NCBI GenBank assembly: GCA_017427405.1
Contig: JAFRSV010000002.1
Span: forward strand, 82,573-146,572
Reading direction: 5' to 3'
From: Alphaproteobacteria bacterium
Lineage (GTDB): Bacteria; Pseudomonadota; Alphaproteobacteria; Rs-D84
DNA length: 64,000 nt
The stretch's first letter is position 1, and every line of letters starts with the position of its first letter. Below the pieces are notes generated by a model, which searched no databases, was not told where the DNA came from, and saw only the letters and a program-made list of their open reading frames with translations. The position numbers were made by a program, and so were the translations under genes. Of the stretch, positions 1 to 58,083 are shown piece after piece.

Positions 1-313
1 TACCATTGTTTGTAGTTAATGCAATTTCAGCTGTTTCTGGATTATTATCATGGTCGTATGTATATAACCCATATCCAGCTTCGGTGCTATAATCTGTTGT
101 TCCTGCATTAAAATCACCCATGCTAGTTGTATAATTTCCATCCGATTGCACCATATTGATACTATCGTTAATGGCACTAATATCACTAGGCGTAATTGTT
201 GCGTTCGCACTATTAGCGGTTGCGACAGCCATAACACCAGCAATAAAAGCACGTTTTAACACGCTACGATATTGAGCGGTTAATTCTTTTAAAGTTGTTT
301 TTGATTGTCTCAT
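1..313 (-). CDS. Secreted or surface protein, N-terminal part (runs off the window)
   Basis: The minus strand reads from an ATG at 313-311 without a stop to the window edge, giving about 104 residues. The first ~40 form a long signal peptide: a basic stretch (MRQSKTTLKELTAQYRSVLKR), a hydrophobic core (AFIAGVMAVATA) and a likely cut after ANA. The following part is rich in Thr, Asn, Asp and Gly, as in exported adhesins or autotransporter passengers. AAAGGA lies just upstream of the start. The gene faces away from the invertible segment at 390-532 and is the likely target of that switch. The family cannot be told from this fragment. Confidence 0.7.
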   Translation of the reverse strand, partial: MRQSKTTLKELTAQYRSVLKRAFIAGVMAVATANSANATITPSDISAINDSINMVQSDGNYTTSMGDFNAGTTDYSTEAGYGLYTYDHDNNPETAEIALTTNNG

Positions 314-374
314 TTTTTTTCCTTTTATTTTTAATATTAAAAACTGTGAATACTTCTTTTTATCCACGAATAGG

Positions 375-532
375 ACTATAAAACAAACCAACGATTGTTT
401 ATTAAACCGGTTAACCAGAACATCTAAACAATATCAAAATCTTGTATATGTTGCTTTTCTAAGGTTTTTTGACTGTCGTAATTTTTGTAATAACTAATTC
501 AAATTAGGAAAAAACATGTTGATTTTATCGTT
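375..532 (-). promoter_or_regulatory. Invertible promoter segment, copy 1 (OFF orientation)
   Basis: Inverted cores AACGAT (390-395) and ATCGTT (527-532) bound a 143 bp segment between the secreted-protein gene and the invertase gene. Outside the left core, on the minus strand, is a fixed -10 box TATAGT (380-375). As the segment lies now, the six bases 17 bp before that box are AATAAA, no -35. If the segment inverts, TTGATT (now at 519-524, facing the invertase) would sit exactly 17 bp from TATAGT and make a good promoter for the gene at 313-1. In the current direction TTGATT has no -10 at 17 bp. The inner block (about 437-510) is homologous to copy 2 but in opposite orientation relative to the invertase. 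Confidence 0.7.
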
Positions 533-573: not shown

Positions 574-1173
574 ATGGCAGTTATTGGATATATTCGCGTA
601 TCATCAAATAAACAAACATGTGAACATCAACATTTTGAAATTGAACAATTTGCAGAACATAACAACATCAATGTAGACAAGTGGGTTGAAGAAACAATCA
701 CATCACGCAAACCATTAAATAAAAGAAAACTTGGGCAATTATTGGATGACCTGCAACCTAATGACATTTTAATTGCTGCCGAAATATCCAGATTGGGTCG
801 TTCTTTGTTAGAAGTTATGCATATTCTGGAATACTGTTTGAATAAAAATTGTCAGGTCTGGACCATCAAAGAAAATTATCGTCTCGGCAACGACATTCAA
901 AGTAAAGTTATGGCATTTGCATTTGGTTTATCTGCTGAAATCGAACGTAATTTAATATCACAACGCACCAAAGCATCATTGGAAAGCGTTCGTGCAACCG
1001 GCAAACGTCTGGGGCGACCATTTTCGGCACAATCAAAGAAATTAAAGTTATCCCGCAACACCAAAAAAGTTAAAGAATTGTTGGATATGGGTTTAACCAT
1101 ATATCGAATTGCAAAAATCATGCAGGTCAAACAAACAACAGTATCAAGATTCATAAATCGTATGGGTTGGTAA
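574..1173 (+). CDS. Serine DNA invertase (Mpi/Pin/Hin family), copy 1
   Basis: A 199-residue small serine recombinase. The resolvase domain has the catalytic serine at position 10 (GYIRVSS), the conserved AEISRLGRS motif and the long E-helix region. The C-terminus carries a helix-turn-helix near residues 175-192 (RIAKIMQVKQTTVSRFIN). ATG 574 is preferred over the in-frame TTG 541 because AAAAGGA precedes it at normal spacing and copy 2 starts at the same residue. Length and layout match promoter and gene invertases. It sits directly beside the invertible segment at 390-532, so it probably flips it. A second copy at 50744-51343 differs at only 17 positions. Confidence 0.92.
   Translation: MAVIGYIRVSSNKQTCEHQHFEIEQFAEHNNINVDKWVEETITSRKPLNKRKLGQLLDDLQPNDILIAAEISRLGRSLLEVMHILEYCLNKNCQVWTIKENYRLGNDIQSKVMAFAFGLSAEIERNLISQRTKASLESVRATGKRLGRPFSAQSKKLKLSRNTKKVKELLDMGLTIYRIAKIMQVKQTTVSRFINRMGW

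Positions 1174-1542: not shown

Positions 1543-1568
<26 letters not shown>
1326..1568 (+). CDS. Small hypothetical protein upstream of the large serine recombinase
   Basis: An 80-residue acidic and lysine-rich protein. The first half (FEILRQEIQSWYPDYQF...) looks like an ordered helical domain; the second half is a low-complexity K/E/N/S tail. AAAGGACGGC sits before the ATG. Its end overlaps the start of the recombinase gene by 26 bp in another frame, so the two are probably translationally coupled. A role as a recombination directionality or accessory factor is possible from position only; no family is recognised. Confidence 0.6.
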
Positions 1569-3150
<1,582 letters not shown>

Positions 3151-48616: not shown

Positions 48617-49693
48617 ATGAAAAAAATATCCACATATAACGCAGAAGCTTTAAATGGTGTTTTAAGGTTGGCTGAATTGTTTTGTGGCCCTGGTGGTATT
48701 GGATTGGGGGCAAAACTTGCTAACGTGGACGGTTTAAAGATTAAACATGTCTGGGCTACGGATTACGATAAAGATACATGTGAAACATATAAAAGGAATT
48801 TGAACCCAGAAGCAATAATTTGTGAAGATATTCGCAAAATGGATTTTGCAAAAATTCATTCAAAATATGGCGAGATAGATTGTTTGACTTTTGGTTTCCC
48901 TTGCAATGATTTTAGCACGGTTGGCGAACAGAAAGGATTGCACGGGGTTTTTGGTGCTTTGTATCAATATTGTGTAAAAGCATTGGAAGAATTTAAACCG
49001 AAATTTTTTATAGCAGAAAACGTGAGTGGTTTGCGTAATGCTAATGATGGAGAAGCTTTTAATAAGATTTTGGAAGCTTTTAAAAATTGTGGATACAACA
49101 TATACCCCAATTTATATCATTTTGAAGAATATGGTGTTCCACAAAAAAGACATAGAGTCATTATTGTTGGTATACGCAATGATATAAATTTAAAGTTTAA
49201 AATACCGTCTACGAAACCATATAAAAAAGTGGATAATTCTGTAAGAACTGCTTTGAAAGACATTCCAGAAAAAGCACCAAACAATGAATTAACTGCTCAA
49301 TCTGCAATGGTTGTAGAAAGATTGAAATATATAAAGGAAGGTGAAAATGCTTTCACCGCAAAGTTGCCACCACACCTTCAATTAAATGTAAAAGGTGCAA
49401 AAATAAGTCAAATTTATAAACGGTTAAAAGCAGATGAACCTTCTTATACGATTACTGGTAGTGGTGGCGGTGGCACACATGTATATCATTATAAAGAAAA
49501 TCGTGCTTTAACAAACCGTGAACGTGCAAGGATTCAAACCTTTACGGATGATTTTGTGTTTATAGGGTCGAAAGAAAGTGTTCGTAAACAGATAGGTATG
49601 GCGGTTCCACCAAGAGGTATGAAAATAATATTTGAAGCACTGTTAAATACAATTCTTGGTAATGATTATGAAACAATGGAAGCAAAAGTGTAA
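48617..49693 (+). CDS. DNA cytosine-5 methyltransferase
   Basis: 358 residues with the C5 methyltransferase motifs in order. Motif I is LFCGPGGIGLG (AdoMet). Motif IV is FPCNDFS (catalytic Cys in PC). Motif VI is ENVSGL and motif VIII is VPQKRHRVIIVG. A target-recognition region with SYTITGSGGGGTHVY and motif X (RKQIGMAVPP) follow. The stop lies 3 bp before a restriction nuclease gene, so it protects the host DNA in a type II system. AAAGGAAATGT precedes the ATG. Confidence 0.94.
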   Translation: MKKISTYNAEALNGVLRLAELFCGPGGIGLGAKLANVDGLKIKHVWATDYDKDTCETYKRNLNPEAIICEDIRKMDFAKIHSKYGEIDCLTFGFPCNDFSTVGEQKGLHGVFGALYQYCVKALEEFKPKFFIAENVSGLRNANDGEAFNKILEAFKNCGYNIYPNLYHFEEYGVPQKRHRVIIVGIRNDINLKFKIPSTKPYKKVDNSVRTALKDIPEKAPNNELTAQSAMVVERLKYIKEGENAFTAKLPPHLQLNVKGAKISQIYKRLKADEPSYTITGSGGGGTHVYHYKENRALTNRERARIQTFTDDFVFIGSKESVRKQIGMAVPPRGMKIIFEALLNTILGNDYETMEAKV

Positions 49694-49696
49694 AAG

Positions 49697-50686
49697 ATGT
49701 CCGATATCATATTAAAAAACGATTTGTTTGAAAAAATACTGTTAGAACCAGCCAGGGAGTGTGATGAGTTGCGGATTGTGTCCGGTTTTTCAACACCTGC
49801 TATGGTAGTGCATAATTTAACCGAAGTAGAAGAGCAATTTGCAAAACCAGATTTAAAAATACAGTTAATTATAGGTATGACCCCCACAATTTCCGGTATT
49901 TCTAAAACGCATCATAAAAACTTTACTAAACTTGTTGCCAATCGTCCAAACTTTGTGTGTTCATATATAAAATCAGATGCCAGTCCGATACATACAAAGC
50001 TTTATACGTGGCTAAGAAATGGTGTTCCACAAAAAGCATTTCTTGCTTCTGCAAATTATACGATAAACGCATTTAAAAAAGAACAGGATGAAATAGCAAC
50101 GGAGTGCGACCCTGTTCAAGCTTTGGAATATTTTAATTCCAAAGTTCCGCTGTCTTTATATTGCACTTGTGATGAAGCAGAGGAAATGGTTAGAGAAGAT
50201 GTTTTACGGCAACGTGTTGCAAGAACGAGAGAAAATTCCGATGAAGAACAACAGGTGCTTGTTGAAAATTCAGGCGTGGAAGGGCAAGACACTGTGTCTT
50301 TACCATTATTTGTAGTTAGAGAAAATAGAATTCATACTCATTCTGGTTTGAATTGGGGGCAAAGAGACCGTAGAAATCCGAATCAGGCCTATATACCAAT
50401 ACCGGCAAAAATAGGTAGAAGTGGTTTTTTCCCGCCACGTGGACAGCCTTTTGCTGTATTGACTTCAGACGGATTCCCGTTTGTATGTGTTGTAGCACAG
50501 GGCGGGGATAAAGCTATACATACAACAAACAATAATAGTGAATTTGGTGAATATTTTAGACGTAGATTAGGTGTGCCGTTGGGTGCTCCTATAACTTTGG
50601 ACGATTTAGACCGATTTGGGAATAGATACGTTAAATTCACAAAAATTAACGAAGAAGAATATTATATGGAATTCAATCCAAATTAG
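49697..50686 (+). CDS. NgoFVII-type restriction endonuclease (PLD fold)
   Basis: 329 residues. The N-terminal half is a phospholipase D-type nuclease: ELRIVSGFSTPAMV, then IHTKLYTWLR with the H-x-K dyad and FLASANYTINAF. The C-terminal half is probably DNA binding. This is the layout of the NgoFVII family (phospholipase D endonucleases paired with C5 methyltransferases). Recognition sequence cannot be read from the protein. It overlaps nothing and is likely co-expressed with the methyltransferase. Confidence 0.82.
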   Translation: MSDIILKNDLFEKILLEPARECDELRIVSGFSTPAMVVHNLTEVEEQFAKPDLKIQLIIGMTPTISGISKTHHKNFTKLVANRPNFVCSYIKSDASPIHTKLYTWLRNGVPQKAFLASANYTINAFKKEQDEIATECDPVQALEYFNSKVPLSLYCTCDEAEEMVREDVLRQRVARTRENSDEEQQVLVENSGVEGQDTVSLPLFVVRENRIHTHSGLNWGQRDRRNPNQAYIPIPAKIGRSGFFPPRGQPFAVLTSDGFPFVCVVAQGGDKAIHTTNNNSEFGEYFRRRLGVPLGAPITLDDLDRFGNRYVKFTKINEEEYYMEFNPN

Positions 50687-50743: not shown

Positions 50744-51343
50744 TTACCAACCCATACGATTTATGAATCTTGATACGGTTGTTTGTTTTACCTGCATTAT
50801 TTTTGCAATTCGGTATCTGGTTAAACCCATATCCAATAATTCTTTAACTTTTTTAGTGTTTTTAGACAATTTTAATTTCCTTGATTGTGCCGAAAATGGA
50901 CGACCTAAGCGTTTGCCTTTTGATTTGACGTTTTCTAATGAAGCCTTGGTGCGTTGTGATATTAAATTACGTTCAATTTCGGCGGATAAACCGAAAGCAA
51001 ATGCCATAACTTTGGATTGGATGTCGTTTCCCAATCTGTAATTTTCTTTGATGGTCCAAACCTGACAATTTTTATTTAAACAATTTTCTAAAATACGCAT
51101 AACTTCCAATAATGAACGACCCAATCTTGATATTTCGGCAGCAATTAAGATGTCGTTTGGTTGTAATTCATCTAATAACTGCCCCAACTGTCGTTTATTT
51201 AACGCTTTACGCGAAGAGATAGTTTCTTCGACCCATCTGTCCACTACGATATTGTTCAAATGCGCAAATTGTTCGATTTCAAAATGCTGATGTTCACAAG
51301 TTTGTTTGTTTGATGATACACGTATATAGCCAATAACCGCCAT
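50744..51343 (-). CDS. Serine DNA invertase (Mpi/Pin/Hin family), copy 2
   Basis: 199 residues, differing from the copy at 574-1173 at 17 positions. Catalytic Ser10, AEISRLGRS and the C-terminal helix-turn-helix are all kept. Most differences lie in two short patches (about 28-60 and 137-140). AAAGGGACAAAAA precedes the ATG. The start faces the invertible segment 51385-51528, as in copy 1. It probably inverts this segment and may act on copy 1 as well. Confidence 0.93.
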   Translation of the reverse strand: MAVIGYIRVSSNKQTCEHQHFEIEQFAHLNNIVVDRWVEETISSRKALNKRQLGQLLDELQPNDILIAAEISRLGRSLLEVMRILENCLNKNCQVWTIKENYRLGNDIQSKVMAFAFGLSAEIERNLISQRTKASLENVKSKGKRLGRPFSAQSRKLKLSKNTKKVKELLDMGLTRYRIAKIMQVKQTTVSRFINRMGW

Positions 51344-51384
51344 TTTTTGTCCCTTTGGTTGATAAATTTAGTCCCTTTTAATAG

Positions 51385-51543
51385 AACGATTGTGTACTAA
51401 ATGTCGATATTTCGGTTTTTTACGTATTAAAAAATCTTGTATACGCTGTGTTTCTAACCTTTTTTCGTGCTTTAGTATTTTTTTTATAACTAATTCAAAT
51501 TGGGAAAAAATAGATTGAAAAAATCGTTGGTTTATGAAATAAT
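51385..51543 (+). promoter_or_regulatory. Invertible promoter segment, copy 2 (ON orientation)
   Basis: Inverted cores AACGAT (51385-51390) and ATCGTT (51523-51528) bound a 144 bp segment. Inside its right end is TTGAAA (51515-51520); outside is AATAAT (51538-51543), exactly 17 bp away, one mismatch from TATAAT. The promoter therefore reads into the exoprotein operon. The core, the flank GGTTT and the 17 bp spacing are as in copy 1, but the inner block lies in the reverse direction relative to the invertase. On the invertase side the six bases 17 bp from the segment's other end are no -10. The predicted start of transcription is about the A of the ATG at 51550. Confidence 0.75.
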
Positions 51544-51549
51544 ATTGCT

Positions 51550-52515
51550 ATGATTATATTAGGCGGGAAGTATAAGCTTTTTGTAATATGTTCAATATGT
51601 TTTTGGTCTGTGATAGCCAAAGCAGATATTTTACCGTTGAATGATGCATTACGAGCCACGTACACAGCATGCGTTGGAATCGATGACAGTTTGGCTGATT
51701 TGAAAAAGATGGCGGGTATAAATACTGCGATAACCGGTGTTGGAACTGGACTTGGCGTTGGTGCAACCGTGGTTGGAATTGTAAAAGAACAGAAAGACCA
51801 AGCGGCAGATACACTGAAAATGGAAAAACTTCGTGCTATTGAAGAACGACGAATACAAAACGAAACACCGCCGACGTCAAATGAAGACCTTGATGCTGTT
51901 TCACGAGAATTTGATAATTTATGGGGACAAAACACCGAAGATAAGAATAAAGATTCCGAAATCGATAAATTGGACCGTCAATCAAAATCACTTGGTCATT
52001 GGCGCACAGGTTTACTTGCCGGAAATACCGCAACCAATGTAGCCGGTGCAATTATTGCGGGTAAAAATACAACCGATGGCGACCTGCAAAATCAGATTGA
52101 TAATTGCAAAACGGCAATAGGTGAACTTCGTCGTGCAAGGGCACAGGCACGAATAGATGGTGTTGATGTGAGTGAAGCAAATGCGATTGTTTCGGCATGT
52201 GAAGGTTTTGAAACTGTTGATATTTCCAAGATAAATACTCGTGCCAAAGGTGCAATGATTTCAGGAATTGTTGGGGCCACGACCGGACTTACCGGAACGA
52301 TAACCAGTGCTGTTGCGAACAGTGATTCGGTCAGAAACCAAGGTGAAGGCGGAACAAGAACGGATAAAGAAAAGAACCTGAATACTGCATCTAATGTTTT
52401 GGCGGGTGCATCCACAGTGGCTTCTGCAACAGCAACGGTATTTAATGCAACACAGATAAAGGCAATCAAAGATGTGGCAAATATTGCTGCGAAATGTACG
52501 GAGGCATTAAAATGA
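51550..52515 (+). CDS. Exported protein with glycine-rich hydrophobic segments
   Basis: 321 residues. Signal peptide KYKLFVICSICFWSVIAKA. The mature part alternates helical coiled-coil regions with four Gly/Ala/Thr-rich hydrophobic stretches (ITGVGTGLGVGATVVGIV; LLAGNTATNVAGAIIAG; ISGIVGATTGLTGTITSAVA; NVLAGASTVASATATVF), which could insert in a membrane or self-associate. No Shine-Dalgarno precedes ATG 51550, and the predicted transcription start coincides with it, so translation may be leaderless. First gene of the phase-variable operon; it overlaps the next by 4 bp. Confidence 0.75.
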   Translation: MIILGGKYKLFVICSICFWSVIAKADILPLNDALRATYTACVGIDDSLADLKKMAGINTAITGVGTGLGVGATVVGIVKEQKDQAADTLKMEKLRAIEERRIQNETPPTSNEDLDAVSREFDNLWGQNTEDKNKDSEIDKLDRQSKSLGHWRTGLLAGNTATNVAGAIIAGKNTTDGDLQNQIDNCKTAIGELRRARAQARIDGVDVSEANAIVSACEGFETVDISKINTRAKGAMISGIVGATTGLTGTITSAVANSDSVRNQGEGGTRTDKEKNLNTASNVLAGASTVASATATVFNATQIKAIKDVANIAAKCTEALK

Positions 52516-55500
52516 AACGAATTTTAATTGCACTCTTTACAGTATTTGCATGTTGTAAAACATTTGCCGAACCAAGTGGTGGATTTATTCCACAATTACC
52601 ACCTACATATTCTCCACCGGAAGTTGTTGAATACGCCATAGAAAAATATGTGGTTGCGCCATATGACCCAAATGCGGTCAAAGCCGCATATGAAAAGTAT
52701 ATGAATCAAGATGATGGCACAATCATAATGGAAAATCTGCAGCAAAAGGTTTGTCCCGCTGGTGGTATGGATTTTGCAAGGTGTAAAGAATTCACCAATG
52801 CATTGATGATACCATATTATGACGTGTGTGATAGTGGCAAAGGGAAATCAGGTGGCAACGAACATTGTGAAAAAAACTTTTTTTATTATGCGGCACCAAA
52901 GAATCTGAGTTTTGGAAACGGAACATATGTAAGAACCAAAGAAGCAATTGGTCTTGCTCAAGAATACGCTTTGGTCAAAGATAAACAAAAGGTTGTTTGT
53001 GTATCCACCAAGGGAAATTCTAAAAAAAACGATACGATTTGGTGCACCAGTATTGATAAAAAACATTTTTACGAATTCAAATTTAACAATATCAAAGAAA
53101 CCAAGGATGACTATATAAAACAATCGTTGCTTAGTGCAATATGTAAATTACATAACACAAAATATACCGCAAGTGCCACTGGTGCCGCAACATCAATTGG
53201 TGGAACTGCCCCTGGTTATTCTTGGCCGGATTCATGTGAAACTGCAGACAAATTAATATGTGCAAATATAAATCAATCACTGGGGCGCTTTTCATACAAG
53301 GCAACGATTGGAACAAGTGATGTTCCACCAATTGGTAAACATTCAACATGTGTAATTGAAAAAGTTGTGAATGATATATCAAACCTGCGTACCACATATG
53401 GTATTGACCCAACGGTTTTTAAAACCGTTCAGGCATTGGTAGGTGAAGATATAGATAAGAAAATCAAACAATATGTTAAACAAGAATTACAAAAACAAAA
53501 AATAACATTTGATGAAAAATCATTCCATTGTGCCGATTCCACAAATGTTTTGAACGGCGGTGATGTTTTGACATGCTATGTAAATAATAAACCGATTGAT
53601 TTCTTGTTCAAAGATTTGTCTGAATGGAACGGTGTAAACAAACGTGGTGGTGCCCAGGCAATGGATTGCATTGTATCTGGTGGAACATACACTGGCAAAC
53701 GTTGCACAAATTTAAATCAAAAACAGTGTGAAATGTTGCGGAGCGCCAATTTAAAAAGTTGTCCAAGTTGTAATATGGTTCGTTGGGATGCAAAGAATAA
53801 AGTTTGCACATTACCCAGCAGTGCCGCAGCAACAAATCTGCAGAAAGATATGAAAGTTGTCGCAATTGTTGGTGGTGCGGTTGTGGGTGCTGCTATTACT
53901 ATCGCAACCGCTGGAACCGCAGGATTGACCGCGGGTGGTTACGTTATACTTGGTGTTGAAACAACCGGTGCAGGTATTGAATGGTGGGCACAGTCAAAGA
54001 TTGATAAATTGTCTGACGAATTTTTCTTGAAAGCGAATAATTGTAATAATGAAAATTGTGCAGCACAATTGATAGAACAATACTTAACCGACCTTGCGGC
54101 AATTGACCGTGATTTAACAGATACCGAAGCCGATGCGGTTGATAAAGAAATGGCGCGTTTGGTTGAATTAATACCAACAAATTCGAATTTATGGATTGAT
54201 AAATTAAGAAATGAAGATGGCACATCATTTTTAGAAAAAGCCGATAATGGTCATTGGACCGCGGCGCAAGTATGGCGTGCAGTCGGTATAGGTATGCAAT
54301 TCGCAGGGGTAGCATCGTCAATTACAGGGTGGATTATAAAAAAGACAAAGTATTTGGAAAAAACATTGGATAGAACATCAAGAATATTATTAAACAATGC
54401 AAGAATAGCCGAAAAGAACATTGTTAAAGTAGATAAATTAGATGATATTGAAAAAGAGTGGTTTAAGCTGTGGCAAGAATATGCGCCAAAGAACCAAACA
54501 CTTGAACAATTCAAAGCCATGACAAACGGTAACTTAGATGAGATGAAAGAAATGGCCACCGGATGGCGCGGTGCTCGTAGTTCTCGTCAGGTTGTTAGAC
54601 CTGAAGTTACACAGCAAATTCAAGATTTAAAATACAAGGAACTGGACCAAATACTGGAAGTAAATACTTTGCAATCCAAATATGGAGTTTTAGATTTGCC
54701 CTCGGATCCAGATGAATTGACCAAATTATATAAACAGCATCCTGACTTAAAAAATGCGAAAGACGCATTAGCACACACACGGAGTCAAATAAATGACTTA
54801 GAAATAGATTTGCTTGATACACCATATTCAACATATGATCCTGAATTTACCCGTATATCCAAACAATACCAGCAAAAAATCGCTGATGTTGATATTGAAA
54901 AAAAGAAAGCATGGCAAGAGTACCAAAAACTGCACCCATCTGCAACGATGGATGACTTTAACAAAACAGATGCATACAAACAATTTGCAGAACAAGAACA
55001 AGCCATCAGACGAGATTATCAGTTTGAGGTTGCAGAAAAATTTCCACTTGAAAATCTTGGAAACGTTGTAAATGAACGTGCTGACGATTTTGCTGAAATC
55101 ATAGCAAATAATCCAGAAATAAAAGCGAAACTGGATCCAGATAATTGGCAAAAACTTGTTGAGGCAGAAAATGGGCAAGCAGATGCTTTAATAGAAAAAC
55201 TTGCTGAAGATCCAACAATAAAATCTAAATTGAGTCCCGACTGGCAAAAACTTGACCCGGATCAACGTAGACGAGAAATGGCAGAGTTGATAAAAACAGA
55301 TTCTGATGTACAATGGATTGTAGATTCCATTTATCCAGAGTTGAGGTCTACAAAAACAGAACGTACCGCTATTGTGCAACAAATTGTGGATAAATATTCA
55401 CAAAAAACATCAACTCAAGCCCCTGATATTTCTAGTGATTACTTAACAACAGCAGGGGGATATTATACGCCAGGCACAAATAATATTGCCTTGAATCCAT

Positions 55501-55928
55501 ATGCACAATTTAAAACTTCTGATGGTATGGTTGAAACCATGGCTCACGAACACGGACATTTTATCGATTATACACAACCAAATGAAGGGGCGATGGGTGA
55601 ACAATTTTCACACTATGCAAAATCACTGTATTCTAGTCGGCCAGAAGATGGGTATCGTATTTCTTTGACAGAACAAAGTTCGTTTAAAATAGGTCCAAAT
55701 GTTTCACATGAGGCAACAGGCACAACCCATTATAGCCATGGTAAAGAATACGATTTAGAACGTGCGAAAGAATCGGAAAGGATTTTGCAAGAAAACAATA
55801 AATATGATAAAGAAGTCTTTGACGAAATAGTTGAAGCACATAGTTCAGAGGCAGCATTGGGTGCCACAGGAATAGGAGTAACAGTTGGTACAACAAAATC
55901 AATAATTCAAAAAAAGGAAAAGAAATGA
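52512..55928 (+). CDS. Large exported protein with C-terminal HExxH metallopeptidase motif
   Basis: 1138 residues from ATG 52512 (GGAGG upstream). A signal peptide (KRILIALFTVFACCKTFA) is followed by a cysteine-rich N-terminal third with many paired cysteines (CPSC, CENKFF-like). A hydrophobic hairpin (about 450-490, VVAIVGGAVVGAAITIA...), a long coiled-coil/helical region and a C-terminal domain come next. That domain carries ETMAHEHGHFIDY; HEHGH at 1012-1016 is an HExxH zinc site. A possible third ligand is in EIVEAHSSEAA. The layout (export signal, membrane hairpin, long stalk, C-terminal enzyme) is like a contact or secreted toxin, but this is inference. The 4 bp overlap with both neighbours couples the three genes. 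Confidence 0.75.
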   Translation: MKRILIALFTVFACCKTFAEPSGGFIPQLPPTYSPPEVVEYAIEKYVVAPYDPNAVKAAYEKYMNQDDGTIIMENLQQKVCPAGGMDFARCKEFTNALMIPYYDVCDSGKGKSGGNEHCEKNFFYYAAPKNLSFGNGTYVRTKEAIGLAQEYALVKDKQKVVCVSTKGNSKKNDTIWCTSIDKKHFYEFKFNNIKETKDDYIKQSLLSAICKLHNTKYTASATGAATSIGGTAPGYSWPDSCETADKLICANINQSLGRFSYKATIGTSDVPPIGKHSTCVIEKVVNDISNLRTTYGIDPTVFKTVQALVGEDIDKKIKQYVKQELQKQKITFDEKSFHCADSTNVLNGGDVLTCYVNNKPIDFLFKDLSEWNGVNKRGGAQAMDCIVSGGTYTGKRCTNLNQKQCEMLRSANLKSCPSCNMVRWDAKNKVCTLPSSAAATNLQKDMKVVAIVGGAVVGAAITIATAGTAGLTAGGYVILGVETTGAGIEWWAQSKIDKLSDEFFLKANNCNNENCAAQLIEQYLTDLAAIDRDLTDTEADAVDKEMARLVELIPTNSNLWIDKLRNEDGTSFLEKADNGHWTAAQVWRAVGIGMQFAGVASSITGWIIKKTKYLEKTLDRTSRILLNNARIAEKNIVKVDKLDDIEKEWFKLWQEYAPKNQTLEQFKAMTNGNLDEMKEMATGWRGARSSRQVVRPEVTQQIQDLKYKELDQILEVNTLQSKYGVLDLPSDPDELTKLYKQHPDLKNAKDALAHTRSQINDLEIDLLDTPYSTYDPEFTRISKQYQQKIADVDIEKKKAWQEYQKLHPSATMDDFNKTDAYKQFAEQEQAIRRDYQFEVAEKFPLENLGNVVNERADDFAEIIANNPEIKAKLDPDNWQKLVEAENGQADALIEKLAEDPTIKSKLSPDWQKLDPDQRRREMAELIKTDSDVQWIVDSIYPELRSTKTERTAIVQQIVDKYSQKTSTQAPDISSDYLTTAGGYYTPGTNNIALNPYAQFKTSDGMVETMAHEHGHFIDYTQPNEGAMGEQFSHYAKSLYSSRPEDGYRISLTEQSSFKIGPNVSHEATGTTHYSHGKEYDLERAKESERILQENNKYDKEVFDEIVEAHSSEAALGATGIGVTVGTTKSIIQKKEKK

Positions 55929-56233
55929 TTATACAAGATACACGCAAATATCGTGAATACATAAAAGAAACAGAAGACAAAGTGAATAAGCTGTATAATA
56001 ATGCTATTGCTAATGTTATACCGGAAACATGCAAGAAAAACATAGAAAGCATCCGTAGCAAAATATTCGGAGAACTCGTCGTTATAAATGGAAAATTAGC
56101 AGACAACTATCTTATTACGCCATCAGATTGGGAACAACACACAAAACGAATAGATGGTTTATGCAAAGATTTATCCGATAAAGTGAACGAGGCAATCGCA
56201 TATTCATCACGCACGCAAGTAAATATACGTTAA
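55925..56233 (+). CDS. Small helical protein after the metallopeptidase
   Basis: 102 residues, helical, charged, no signal peptide. AAAAAGGAAAAG precedes the ATG, and the start overlaps the upstream stop by 4 bp. Position and size would fit a cytoplasmic immunity or chaperone protein for the large exoprotein, but nothing in the sequence shows this directly. Confidence 0.6.
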   Translation: MIIQDTRKYREYIKETEDKVNKLYNNAIANVIPETCKKNIESIRSKIFGELVVINGKLADNYLITPSDWEQHTKRIDGLCKDLSDKVNEAIAYSSRTQVNIR

Positions 56234-56304: not shown

Positions 56305-58083
56305 ATGAAAGAAATAGATACAGAACAAGCGTTCAAACAAATAAAAAAACAAAATGGCGAGGCAGTTGCTAAGGTTTTGCGTAGCGAAGTATTATTAGAC
56401 ATTCCTAACCTTGCGCATATTTTAGAATTTGCCGGTAACGATCCAGAAAAAATAAAAGCCCTGGCACCTGTTATCCGGGAAATTTATAAAACACAAAACA
56501 CACCAGAATATCAAACAAATAAGACACCTTTGGAATTATTGAGCCAAGCTGGATATGATGCTTTTGTTGTTACAACAGAAAAACAAAAAAATTCAATAAA
56601 AAAATACTACAGATCTGGTGAGGAAATATGCACATTTCGTGACCCACATCGCCACGAAAATAATTATATGATTCATGCGGTTAAACGTGGTGCCGATAAG
56701 ATCCAACCATCAGATCATCCAGAACGTGAAGACGAGTACGGAACATCAGTTATATCGATACAAATTGCCAAGACAGGCGGTTTCATTTCAATCAAAAACC
56801 GTTACAACCATACTGTGAACAATCCGGATGCAACGTTTAATAATAACCCAGACAACATTATCCATGGTTTATCAAACTCGTTAAAAAAATATTTTAATGT
56901 AGAATTTAACACAACTGAAAATCCACTGCCGGACAATTATCGAATGGTAAATGATCAATTTGTGTATTTTAACCACGAAATAGAAAACACATATTTTGGT
57001 CCGGATTATTATTTCTCTGGCAGCACAATCACTAAACTGAATACCGGTTATGAAATTATGCTGGATTATTTCGTTTTAGATACAAGAACAGGCGAAGTAA
57101 AAGATGTTGTCGGAGTAAAAGGTTCAACACATAAAATTCTGCAAGGTTTATTAAAAAATAAAAAAATCAGCATTCGTACCAATCCAAACAATAAACATGA
57201 ACGTATGATATTTGCAGATGATGCACACGTATTAAGTTTTGAGAAAGGCACAATAACAGAATTAAATTTACCAGACATAAAAAGTATTGATGACAGTTTC
57301 TTAGCGTATACCCAAAATCTTAGAAAACTTTATGCACCAAAATTAGAAACTGTTGGCAATGAGTTTTTGTCATCAAACAAACAATTAACAGAACTTGATT
57401 TACCGTCTTTAAAAGAAGTTGGACATAATTTTGTATCGCGTAATGCGTTCATAAGAAAATTTAACGCACCACTTTTGGAAAAAACGGGGTCTTGTTTTTT
57501 GATGGAAAATCAGGGACTAACCAAATTGGAATTGCCATCATTGAAAGAACTTGCTGATTATTGTTTGAAAGACAACATCGCATTATCAAAACTTTATGTA
57601 CCAAAATTGGAAATCATAGGTCCTATTTCTTTGATGGAAAATGTTATGTTAACTGAATTGGATTTACCAAAAGTACGTGAAATTGGCGGTGGTGTTTTGA
57701 AAGCAAATAAAAACTTGGCACATTTACATGCGCCAAAGGTAGAAAAGATTGGCGACCATGTTATGCTTGAAAATCTAGGTTTAATAGAATTGAATCTACC
57801 TGCATTGCAGGAAGTCGGAGATAATTTTTTATCTGAAAATAGAAAATTAAAAAAATTTTATGCCCCGAAATTGAAAATAACAAAATGGCGGTTCCTCGCA
57901 AAAAATACAGAATTGACCGATTTTGTTGTAGCAAATGATGATATCCTTCATAAATACAACAAGCGATTGGTTATGATTCTTGCAAAAAATAAAATCAAAC
58001 AGAAACTGAAAAATGGCGTAAACGGTTTAATCAACATGGTTACAGCAGCGCGTAACACTAAAAGCGAACCAGCTAGAATATAG
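56305..58083 (+). CDS. BspA-like leucine-rich repeat protein
   Basis: 592 residues without a signal peptide. The N-terminal ~310 residues are an unrecognised mixed domain. From about 318 to 560 there are some ten 23-residue repeats of the LRR_5/BspA type in two alternating forms: ELDLPSLKEVGxxFLxxN and KLYAPKLExIGxxFLxxN. Such solenoids bind proteins or surfaces. The C-terminal 40 residues are basic. A TATAAT at 56275-56280 may give it its own start, 70 bp after the previous gene. A terminator follows. Confidence 0.82.
   Translation: MKEIDTEQAFKQIKKQNGEAVAKVLRSEVLLDIPNLAHILEFAGNDPEKIKALAPVIREIYKTQNTPEYQTNKTPLELLSQAGYDAFVVTTEKQKNSIKKYYRSGEEICTFRDPHRHENNYMIHAVKRGADKIQPSDHPEREDEYGTSVISIQIAKTGGFISIKNRYNHTVNNPDATFNNNPDNIIHGLSNSLKKYFNVEFNTTENPLPDNYRMVNDQFVYFNHEIENTYFGPDYYFSGSTITKLNTGYEIMLDYFVLDTRTGEVKDVVGVKGSTHKILQGLLKNKKISIRTNPNNKHERMIFADDAHVLSFEKGTITELNLPDIKSIDDSFLAYTQNLRKLYAPKLETVGNEFLSSNKQLTELDLPSLKEVGHNFVSRNAFIRKFNAPLLEKTGSCFLMENQGLTKLELPSLKELADYCLKDNIALSKLYVPKLEIIGPISLMENVMLTELDLPKVREIGGGVLKANKNLAHLHAPKVEKIGDHVMLENLGLIELNLPALQEVGDNFLSENRKLKKFYAPKLKITKWRFLAKNTELTDFVVANDDILHKYNKRLVMILAKNKIKQKLKNGVNGLINMVTAARNTKSEPARI

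Follow-up and report, generated by a model that had tools for sequence, protein, structure and literature searches.

A candidate serine-invertase phase switch with its promoter split at the crossover site in an uncultured alphaproteobacterium

The best-described cases of phase variation by invertible promoters come from Bacteroidales and Clostridioides. We present here a candidate switch of this kind upstream of a two-gene operon for predicted exported proteins in an Alphaproteobacteria bacterium (GenBank assembly GCA_017427405.1), whose genome of 1.06 Mb is assembled in 16 contigs. The window, meaning the whole stretch of 64,000 nucleotides (nt) analyzed, is positions 82573-146572 of contig C16 (JAFRSV010000002.1). 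By inference, the host, a gut bacterium, belongs to Candidatus Enterousia of the order Rs-D84, a genus described as fermentative, with genomes reduced to about 1 Mb (PMC12306168). Genome-scan matches include Candidatus Enterousia onthequi and E. merdequi, and the match in the latter agrees in contig position and identity with that of G062, a genome assigned to the same genus. The switch, termed copy 2, consists of the following features, given in window coordinates and with functional labels as predicted.

50744..51343, minus strand: invertase, a 199-amino-acid (aa) small serine recombinase, Mpi-like (Pfam Resolvase, E 1.6e-31)
51385..51528: invertible segment, 144 bp, in the predicted ON orientation, with AACGAT/ATCGTT at its two ends
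51515..51520, plus strand: putative -35 hexamer TTGAAA, within the segment at its distal end
51521..51537, plus strand: putative promoter spacer of 17 bp, holding the distal recombination site ATCGTT-GGTTT
51538..51543, plus strand: putative -10 hexamer AATAAT, part of the fixed distal flank
51550..52515, plus strand: operon gene 1, for a 321-aa protein with a signal-peptide-like N-terminus and without a match in Pfam or NCBIfam
52494..55928, plus strand: operon gene 2, 1144 aa, signal-peptide-like N-terminus, overlapping gene 1

The AACGAT core starts at 51385 and the ATCGTT core ends at 51528. The inverted repeat spans only about 6 bp end to end, and the four half-arms are unlike beyond that. 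A related switch, copy 1, occupies the left end of the window.

1..313, minus strand: 5' part of the target gene, for a 572-aa YadA-anchor trimeric autotransporter-like protein, extending beyond the window
375..380, minus strand: putative -10 hexamer TATAGT, part of the fixed distal flank; inversion of the segment would place it 17 bp from the -35
390..532: invertible segment, 143 bp, in the predicted OFF orientation
519..524, plus strand: putative -35 hexamer TTGATT, pointing at the invertase and lacking a -10 at 17-bp spacing
574..1173, plus strand: invertase

A first-pass annotation of the window had described copies 1 and 2 as sharing their cores, the ATCGTT-GGTTT flank and the 17-bp geometry, with TTGAAA and AATAAT joined in copy 2. 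The sequence bears this out: copies 1 and 2 share their outer flanks, with ATCGTT-GGTTT on the distal side and ATCGTT-CTATTAAA on that of the invertase, and 17 bp separate 51515-51520 from 51538-51543. The same annotation held that, relative to the invertase, the inner block of copy 2 is reversed compared with that of copy 1, and it is. With the invertases oriented alike, local alignment of the inner blocks scored 53 with copy 2 reversed versus 13 in the direct orientation, and 500 single-base shuffles gave a mean of 13 and a maximum of 20. The segment of a third copy, on contig C5, is oriented as in copy 1. All three copies have the -35 within the invertible segment and the -10 outside it, in the distal flank that stays put; a sigma70-like promoter with 17-bp spacing would therefore form in one orientation only. 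Inversion on paper turns copy 1 into TTGATT-17-TATAGT and copy 3 into TTGAAA-17-TATAAC; as assembled, copies 1 and 3 are thus predicted to be OFF and copy 2 ON.

Regions upstream of homologous invertases were parsed with the recombination-site pattern as the sole guide; sites were found without reference to the promoter. (A loosely set automatic repeat finder returned many pairs that arose by chance; its output served only for reading by eye.) Parsing succeeded for 48 of the 98 rows and not for the other 50; removal of seven duplicates before all counts (L004, L005, L007, L038, L039, L046, and L055) left 41 distinct places in 33 genomes, 23 of type A (AACGAT-like core) and 18 of type B (CCAAGGTT or CCTAGGTT core). 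The distance from the center of the site to the first base of the -35 TTGA is 12 nt in 21 of the 23 type A places and 13 nt in 17 of the 18 type B places; on the other side of the center, the -10 starts at 11 nt and 10 nt, respectively. Because the two offsets shift oppositely by one base, the spacing is 17 bp in both types. At this spacing, the 20 distinct distal flanks of type A match TATAAT at a mean of 4.35 bases and the 16 of type B at 3.94, with at least four matches in 17/20 and 13/16; the proximal means are 2.20 and 2.31. Pooled over the 36 distinct flanks, the distal mean was 4.17. The null mean was about 2.16, and none of 20,000 draws in either null (random registers or shuffled flanks) reached the distal value; these draws somewhat overstate significance, since flanks drawn from a single genus lack full independence. 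The pooled proximal mean of 2.25 was ordinary, with 6,250 and 8,359 of 20,000 draws as good. The -35 and -10 do not lie together within the segment: at the parsed loci, the predicted -10 is in the fixed distal flank. The 17-bp geometry is kept at L016, from another family of the order. We also considered, and rejected, a -35 that alternately serves the invertase, given that at least four matches at 17 bp occur in only 1/20 and 1/16 proximal flanks.

Both orientations occur among relatives. Twelve of the 41 parsed places are ON-like (8/23 type A and 4/18 type B; L065, with the hexamer TTGC-, was assigned ON by hand) and 29 are OFF-like. The opposite-state comparisons are with other species of the genus, the genome collections used holding one genome per species. 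The flanks of L018 (genome G030, OFF) and L086 (G120, ON) are identical at 151/152 distal and 150/150 proximal positions, and their segments agree at 111/113 positions only if one is reversed (49/74 otherwise); near-identical flanks with opposite states point to a recent inversion. Copy 1 (OFF) and its counterpart in RUG10747 (G118, contig CACWNX010000001.1, rows L048 and L142; ON) are identical at 152/152 distal and 129/140 proximal positions, with segment scores of 55 reversed and 22.5 direct. The first-pass annotation had taken copies 1 and 2 for two states of one switch and looked to other genomes of the species for the opposite state. Its reading stands in substance on both counts, in that a segment bounded by inverted repeats is found in both orientations, between paralogues and at orthologous loci of other species. 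For copy 2 itself, no opposite-state counterpart was found, its nearest gene homologues having no adjoining switch in the loci read. Relatives of the gene at 51550 were accordingly rejected as proof of its opposite state, six homologues (L105-L110) having no switch beside the gene. On an invertase tree of 40 rows (L057, with a translated frame of only 24 aa, was excluded), the ON label requires 10 changes for 11 ON rows; shuffled labels gave a mean of 9.8, and 367 of 500 shuffles were as low. The number of changes is no lower than with shuffled labels, which indicates that orientation is labile and that ON and OFF states are distributed without regard to the invertase phylogeny. A contig end lies no more than 250 bp from the invertase on its upstream side at 10/109 places and on its downstream side at 3/109.

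We consider it very probable, on sequence grounds, that copy 2 is a serine-invertase phase switch whose promoter is split at the crossover site and that it stands in the ON state. We infer that the recombinase flips the segment, that the hexamers are a promoter, and that the flip changes expression. An Mpi-like small serine recombinase would flip a segment of about 144 bp that bears a -35 alone near one end, with the crossover site inside the promoter spacer and the -10 in the fixed flank by the target gene. In the ON orientation, the two hexamers would be exactly 17 bp apart and the target operon would be on; in the OFF orientation, the -35 would be aimed at the invertase, with no -10 at that spacing, and the target would be off. 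On this reading, the two-gene operon for exported proteins behind copy 2 would be switched on as assembled, and the YadA-like adhesin behind copy 1 and the secreted or lipoprotein-like protein behind copy 3 would both be switched off. Transcription of the copy 2 operon is predicted to start on, or directly beside, the ATG at 51550, so the messenger RNA (mRNA) would be leaderless.

Several observations weigh against this interpretation. Twenty of the 50 unparsed rows have invertases at least 70% identical; among the unparsed rows, a switch is visible by eye in some (L011, L014, L044, L059, and L060) and not in others. Lesser -10-like peaks are present in distal flanks at 14 bp (mean, 3.50; 12/20) and 19 bp (3.10) in type A and at 15 bp (3.06) in type B, as well as in type A proximal flanks at 22 bp (3.10). 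The repeat itself is short, at about 6 bp, and its two cores differ by 1 to 3 bases at several loci (e.g., L048, L050, L056, and L062). At copy 2, the ATG at 51550 sits right on the predicted start, so that a leaderless mRNA is needed, and a second, extended -10-like stretch, TGCTATGAT, at about 51546-51554, overlaps the start codon.

The segment might invert while expression is set by some other element, such as a terminator, an antisense transcript, or a complete promoter within the segment. AT-rich DNA yields many promoter-like strings, some -10 resemblance is seen in other registers too, and the cwpV and flg switches of C. difficile act after initiation (PMC9286219); we nevertheless judge this improbable, since the 17-bp peak stands in the distal flank and in one register only, where no draw in 20,000 equaled it, and since 17 bp is kept in two site types with hexamers at different distances from the center. 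The imperfect cores at several loci would also suit remnants, that is, paralogous duplications long fixed in differing orientations in which flipping is over. This is harder still to credit, given the recent inversion that separates G030 from G120 behind near-identical flanks, the scatter of states over the invertase tree, and invertase frames that are open in all three copies of the window genome. The fixed distance of the -35-like string from the crossover center would also suit a binding site for the recombinase or an accessory protein, of which the string would be a part without being a promoter element, a reading to which we give very little weight beside the split promoter.

The three invertases are 91-94% identical (copy 2 versus copy 1, 91%), in keeping with their earlier description as almost the same. 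Against the NCBIfam Mpi model NF009949, they score 270.2 (copy 2), 270.6 (copy 1), and 262.8 bits (copy 3), below the cutoff of 272, and are called Mpi-like for that reason; close relatives that pass the cutoff are present in 68/191 genomes of the order. The resolvase catalytic domain PF00239 is present (E 1.6e-31 and 2.9e-31), and the invertase alignment has conserved arginine and serine columns, which we take to be the catalytic residues. Helix-turn-helix models match residues about 155-197, all below their own cutoffs. The nearest solved structures by sequence are 4m6f and 3uj3, entries titled DNA-invertase. Invertase homologues (E 1e-30 or better) occur in 118/157 genomes of the genus and the Mpi model at 1e-30 matches in 130/191 genomes of the order and 0/14 control genomes, although the presence of a homologue does not equal the presence of this switch. 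In the fixed flank that forms the leader between switch and invertase at L018, L019, L082, L087, L088, and other type B loci, a promoter-like TTGACA/TTGAAA-16-TATAT pair was noted by eye, as was a terminator-like hairpin with a T run after the pair and before the invertase start; pair and hairpin may keep the invertase low.

Cross-talk between the switches, raised in the first-pass annotation, is plausible in view of the high identity of the invertases and their like outer arms. The annotation had also pointed to a search of the genome for further AACGAT-bounded segments, which yielded the copy 3 switch and no segment lacking its own invertase. AACGATT-N(115-145)-ATCGTT matched the three invertase-linked segments and one extra place, on one strand only, taken as chance because the backwards control also gave one match. 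A longer site, AAACCAACGAT, occurs five times in the genome: at the three switches and inside two long coding frames that resemble ftsI and tuf (named by eye). An orphan segment was thus not found in this genome by the two pattern searches.

In relatives, the same layout often stands upstream of genes for putative surface proteins. The 1144-aa protein of the copy 2 operon has only weak, sub-cutoff matches to zincin metallopeptidases. Homologues of the 51550 gene are present in 122/157 genomes of the genus, and the second operon gene follows it on the same strand at 23 of 31 homologous loci checked. A 5/6-or-better TATAAT lies 6-8 nt before an in-frame start at 13/29 loci homologous to 51550, and at several other spacings too; with no chance control, this placement is weak support for the -10. 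The YadA anchor of the copy 1 target (PF03895) has an E value of 1.9e-09 and 37.9 bits versus a cutoff of 22.7. The copy 3 target is a 282-aa protein with a lipoprotein-like start and no Pfam match. Thirty putative targets, picked from a list and in some cases lying beyond a site-like match and not a confirmed whole switch, had the following Pfam assignments: YadA anchor, 7; outer-membrane barrel, 2; autotransporter barrel, 1; DNA methyltransferase, 2; other domains, 5; and no match or sub-cutoff matches only, 13. The two methyltransferases, at L013 and L176, are of the EcoRI-type adenine (E 1.2e-112) and C5 (E 1.5e-94) kinds, and phase-variable methylation is possible there. Read by eye, the targets at L041, L053, and L056 (about 190-250 aa) resemble degenerate relatives of recombinases; Pfam gave nothing for two of them and a helix-turn-helix only for L056.

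Among known systems, Mpi of Bacteroides fragilis inverts many distant segments as a single enzyme, with the promoter between the repeats (PMC4747536, PMC12632263). An Mpi-like small serine recombinase, short segments upstream of surface-structure genes, and, by prediction, stochastic ON/OFF control are shared with that system; here, in contrast, each segment found in the genome adjoins its own invertase and the repeat would divide the promoter. The ipuS element of uropathogenic Escherichia coli, which controls the autotransporter UpaE, likewise has very short (7-bp) inverted repeats, an autotransporter target, and an adjoining recombinase but uses tyrosine recombinases and holds the start site and whole promoter inside the element (PMC6083910). 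The closest solved structures by sequence link the invertases to Hin/Gin-type DNA invertases, from which the present system differs in that the invertase lies outside the segment; Hin needs Fis and an enhancer (PMC3798978). In hybrid promoters made by insertion sequences and in hif phase variation, which works by a change in -10/-35 spacing, a mobile or variable piece also completes or spoils a -35/-10 pair, although through insertion or repeat slippage and not reversible site-specific inversion (PMC9820224). In the literature covered, from which subscription journals were largely absent, no invertase switch with a site splitting the -35 from the -10 was found. Phase variation by Mpi-like invertases is already known; the promoter split at the crossover site looks new.

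A reduced-genome, uncultured alphaproteobacterial genus would thereby have a phase-variation design on adhesins, secreted operons, and DNA methyltransferases, and the split layout hints at direct competition of transcription with recombination. One survey retained only invertible regions with a detected promoter (PMC8748976), a filter that a split promoter could fail. More tentatively, and with the odds somewhat against it, the switches may form a portable class across the genus in which crossover site and spacer coincide, so that any -10-bearing gene joined to the half-site would come under control; targets would be swapped as cassettes while the invertase and -35 segment stay, and the contest between recombinase and RNA polymerase would give feedback. 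If so, the two proteins would share 17 bp, transcription would hinder inversion, recombinase binding would repress, and standard searches that need long repeats and a whole promoter in the segment would miss the class.

The surroundings of copy 2 contain the following additional genes.

48617-49693: C5 DNA methylase, adjoining the NgoFVII-like gene left of the copy 2 invertase
49697-50686: NgoFVII-like restriction enzyme, between the C5 methylase and the copy 2 invertase
55925-56233, plus strand: 102-aa open reading frame (ORF), possibly a further operon gene
56305-58083, plus strand: 592-aa ORF with BspA-type leucine-rich repeats, possibly a further operon gene

Two paralogues of the 51550 gene, at the ends of contigs C11 (G000:C11, L214) and C8 (G000:C8, L215), have the same first ~140 bases and then diverge, representing either an assembly fork or alternative 3' parts of a gene family. 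Beside copy 1, the distal gene (L037; window 1-395 and upstream) is 100, 96, 95, 90, 99, 96, 87, and 87% identical to L142 in its first eight 100-bp bins, and the invertase side is 93, 83, 76, 81, 77, and 74% identical in its first six. The better conservation of the adhesin than of the invertase suggests that targets may have been exchanged near the switch. A 535-aa ORF adjoining copy 1 (window 1543-3150) resembles a large serine recombinase by eye.
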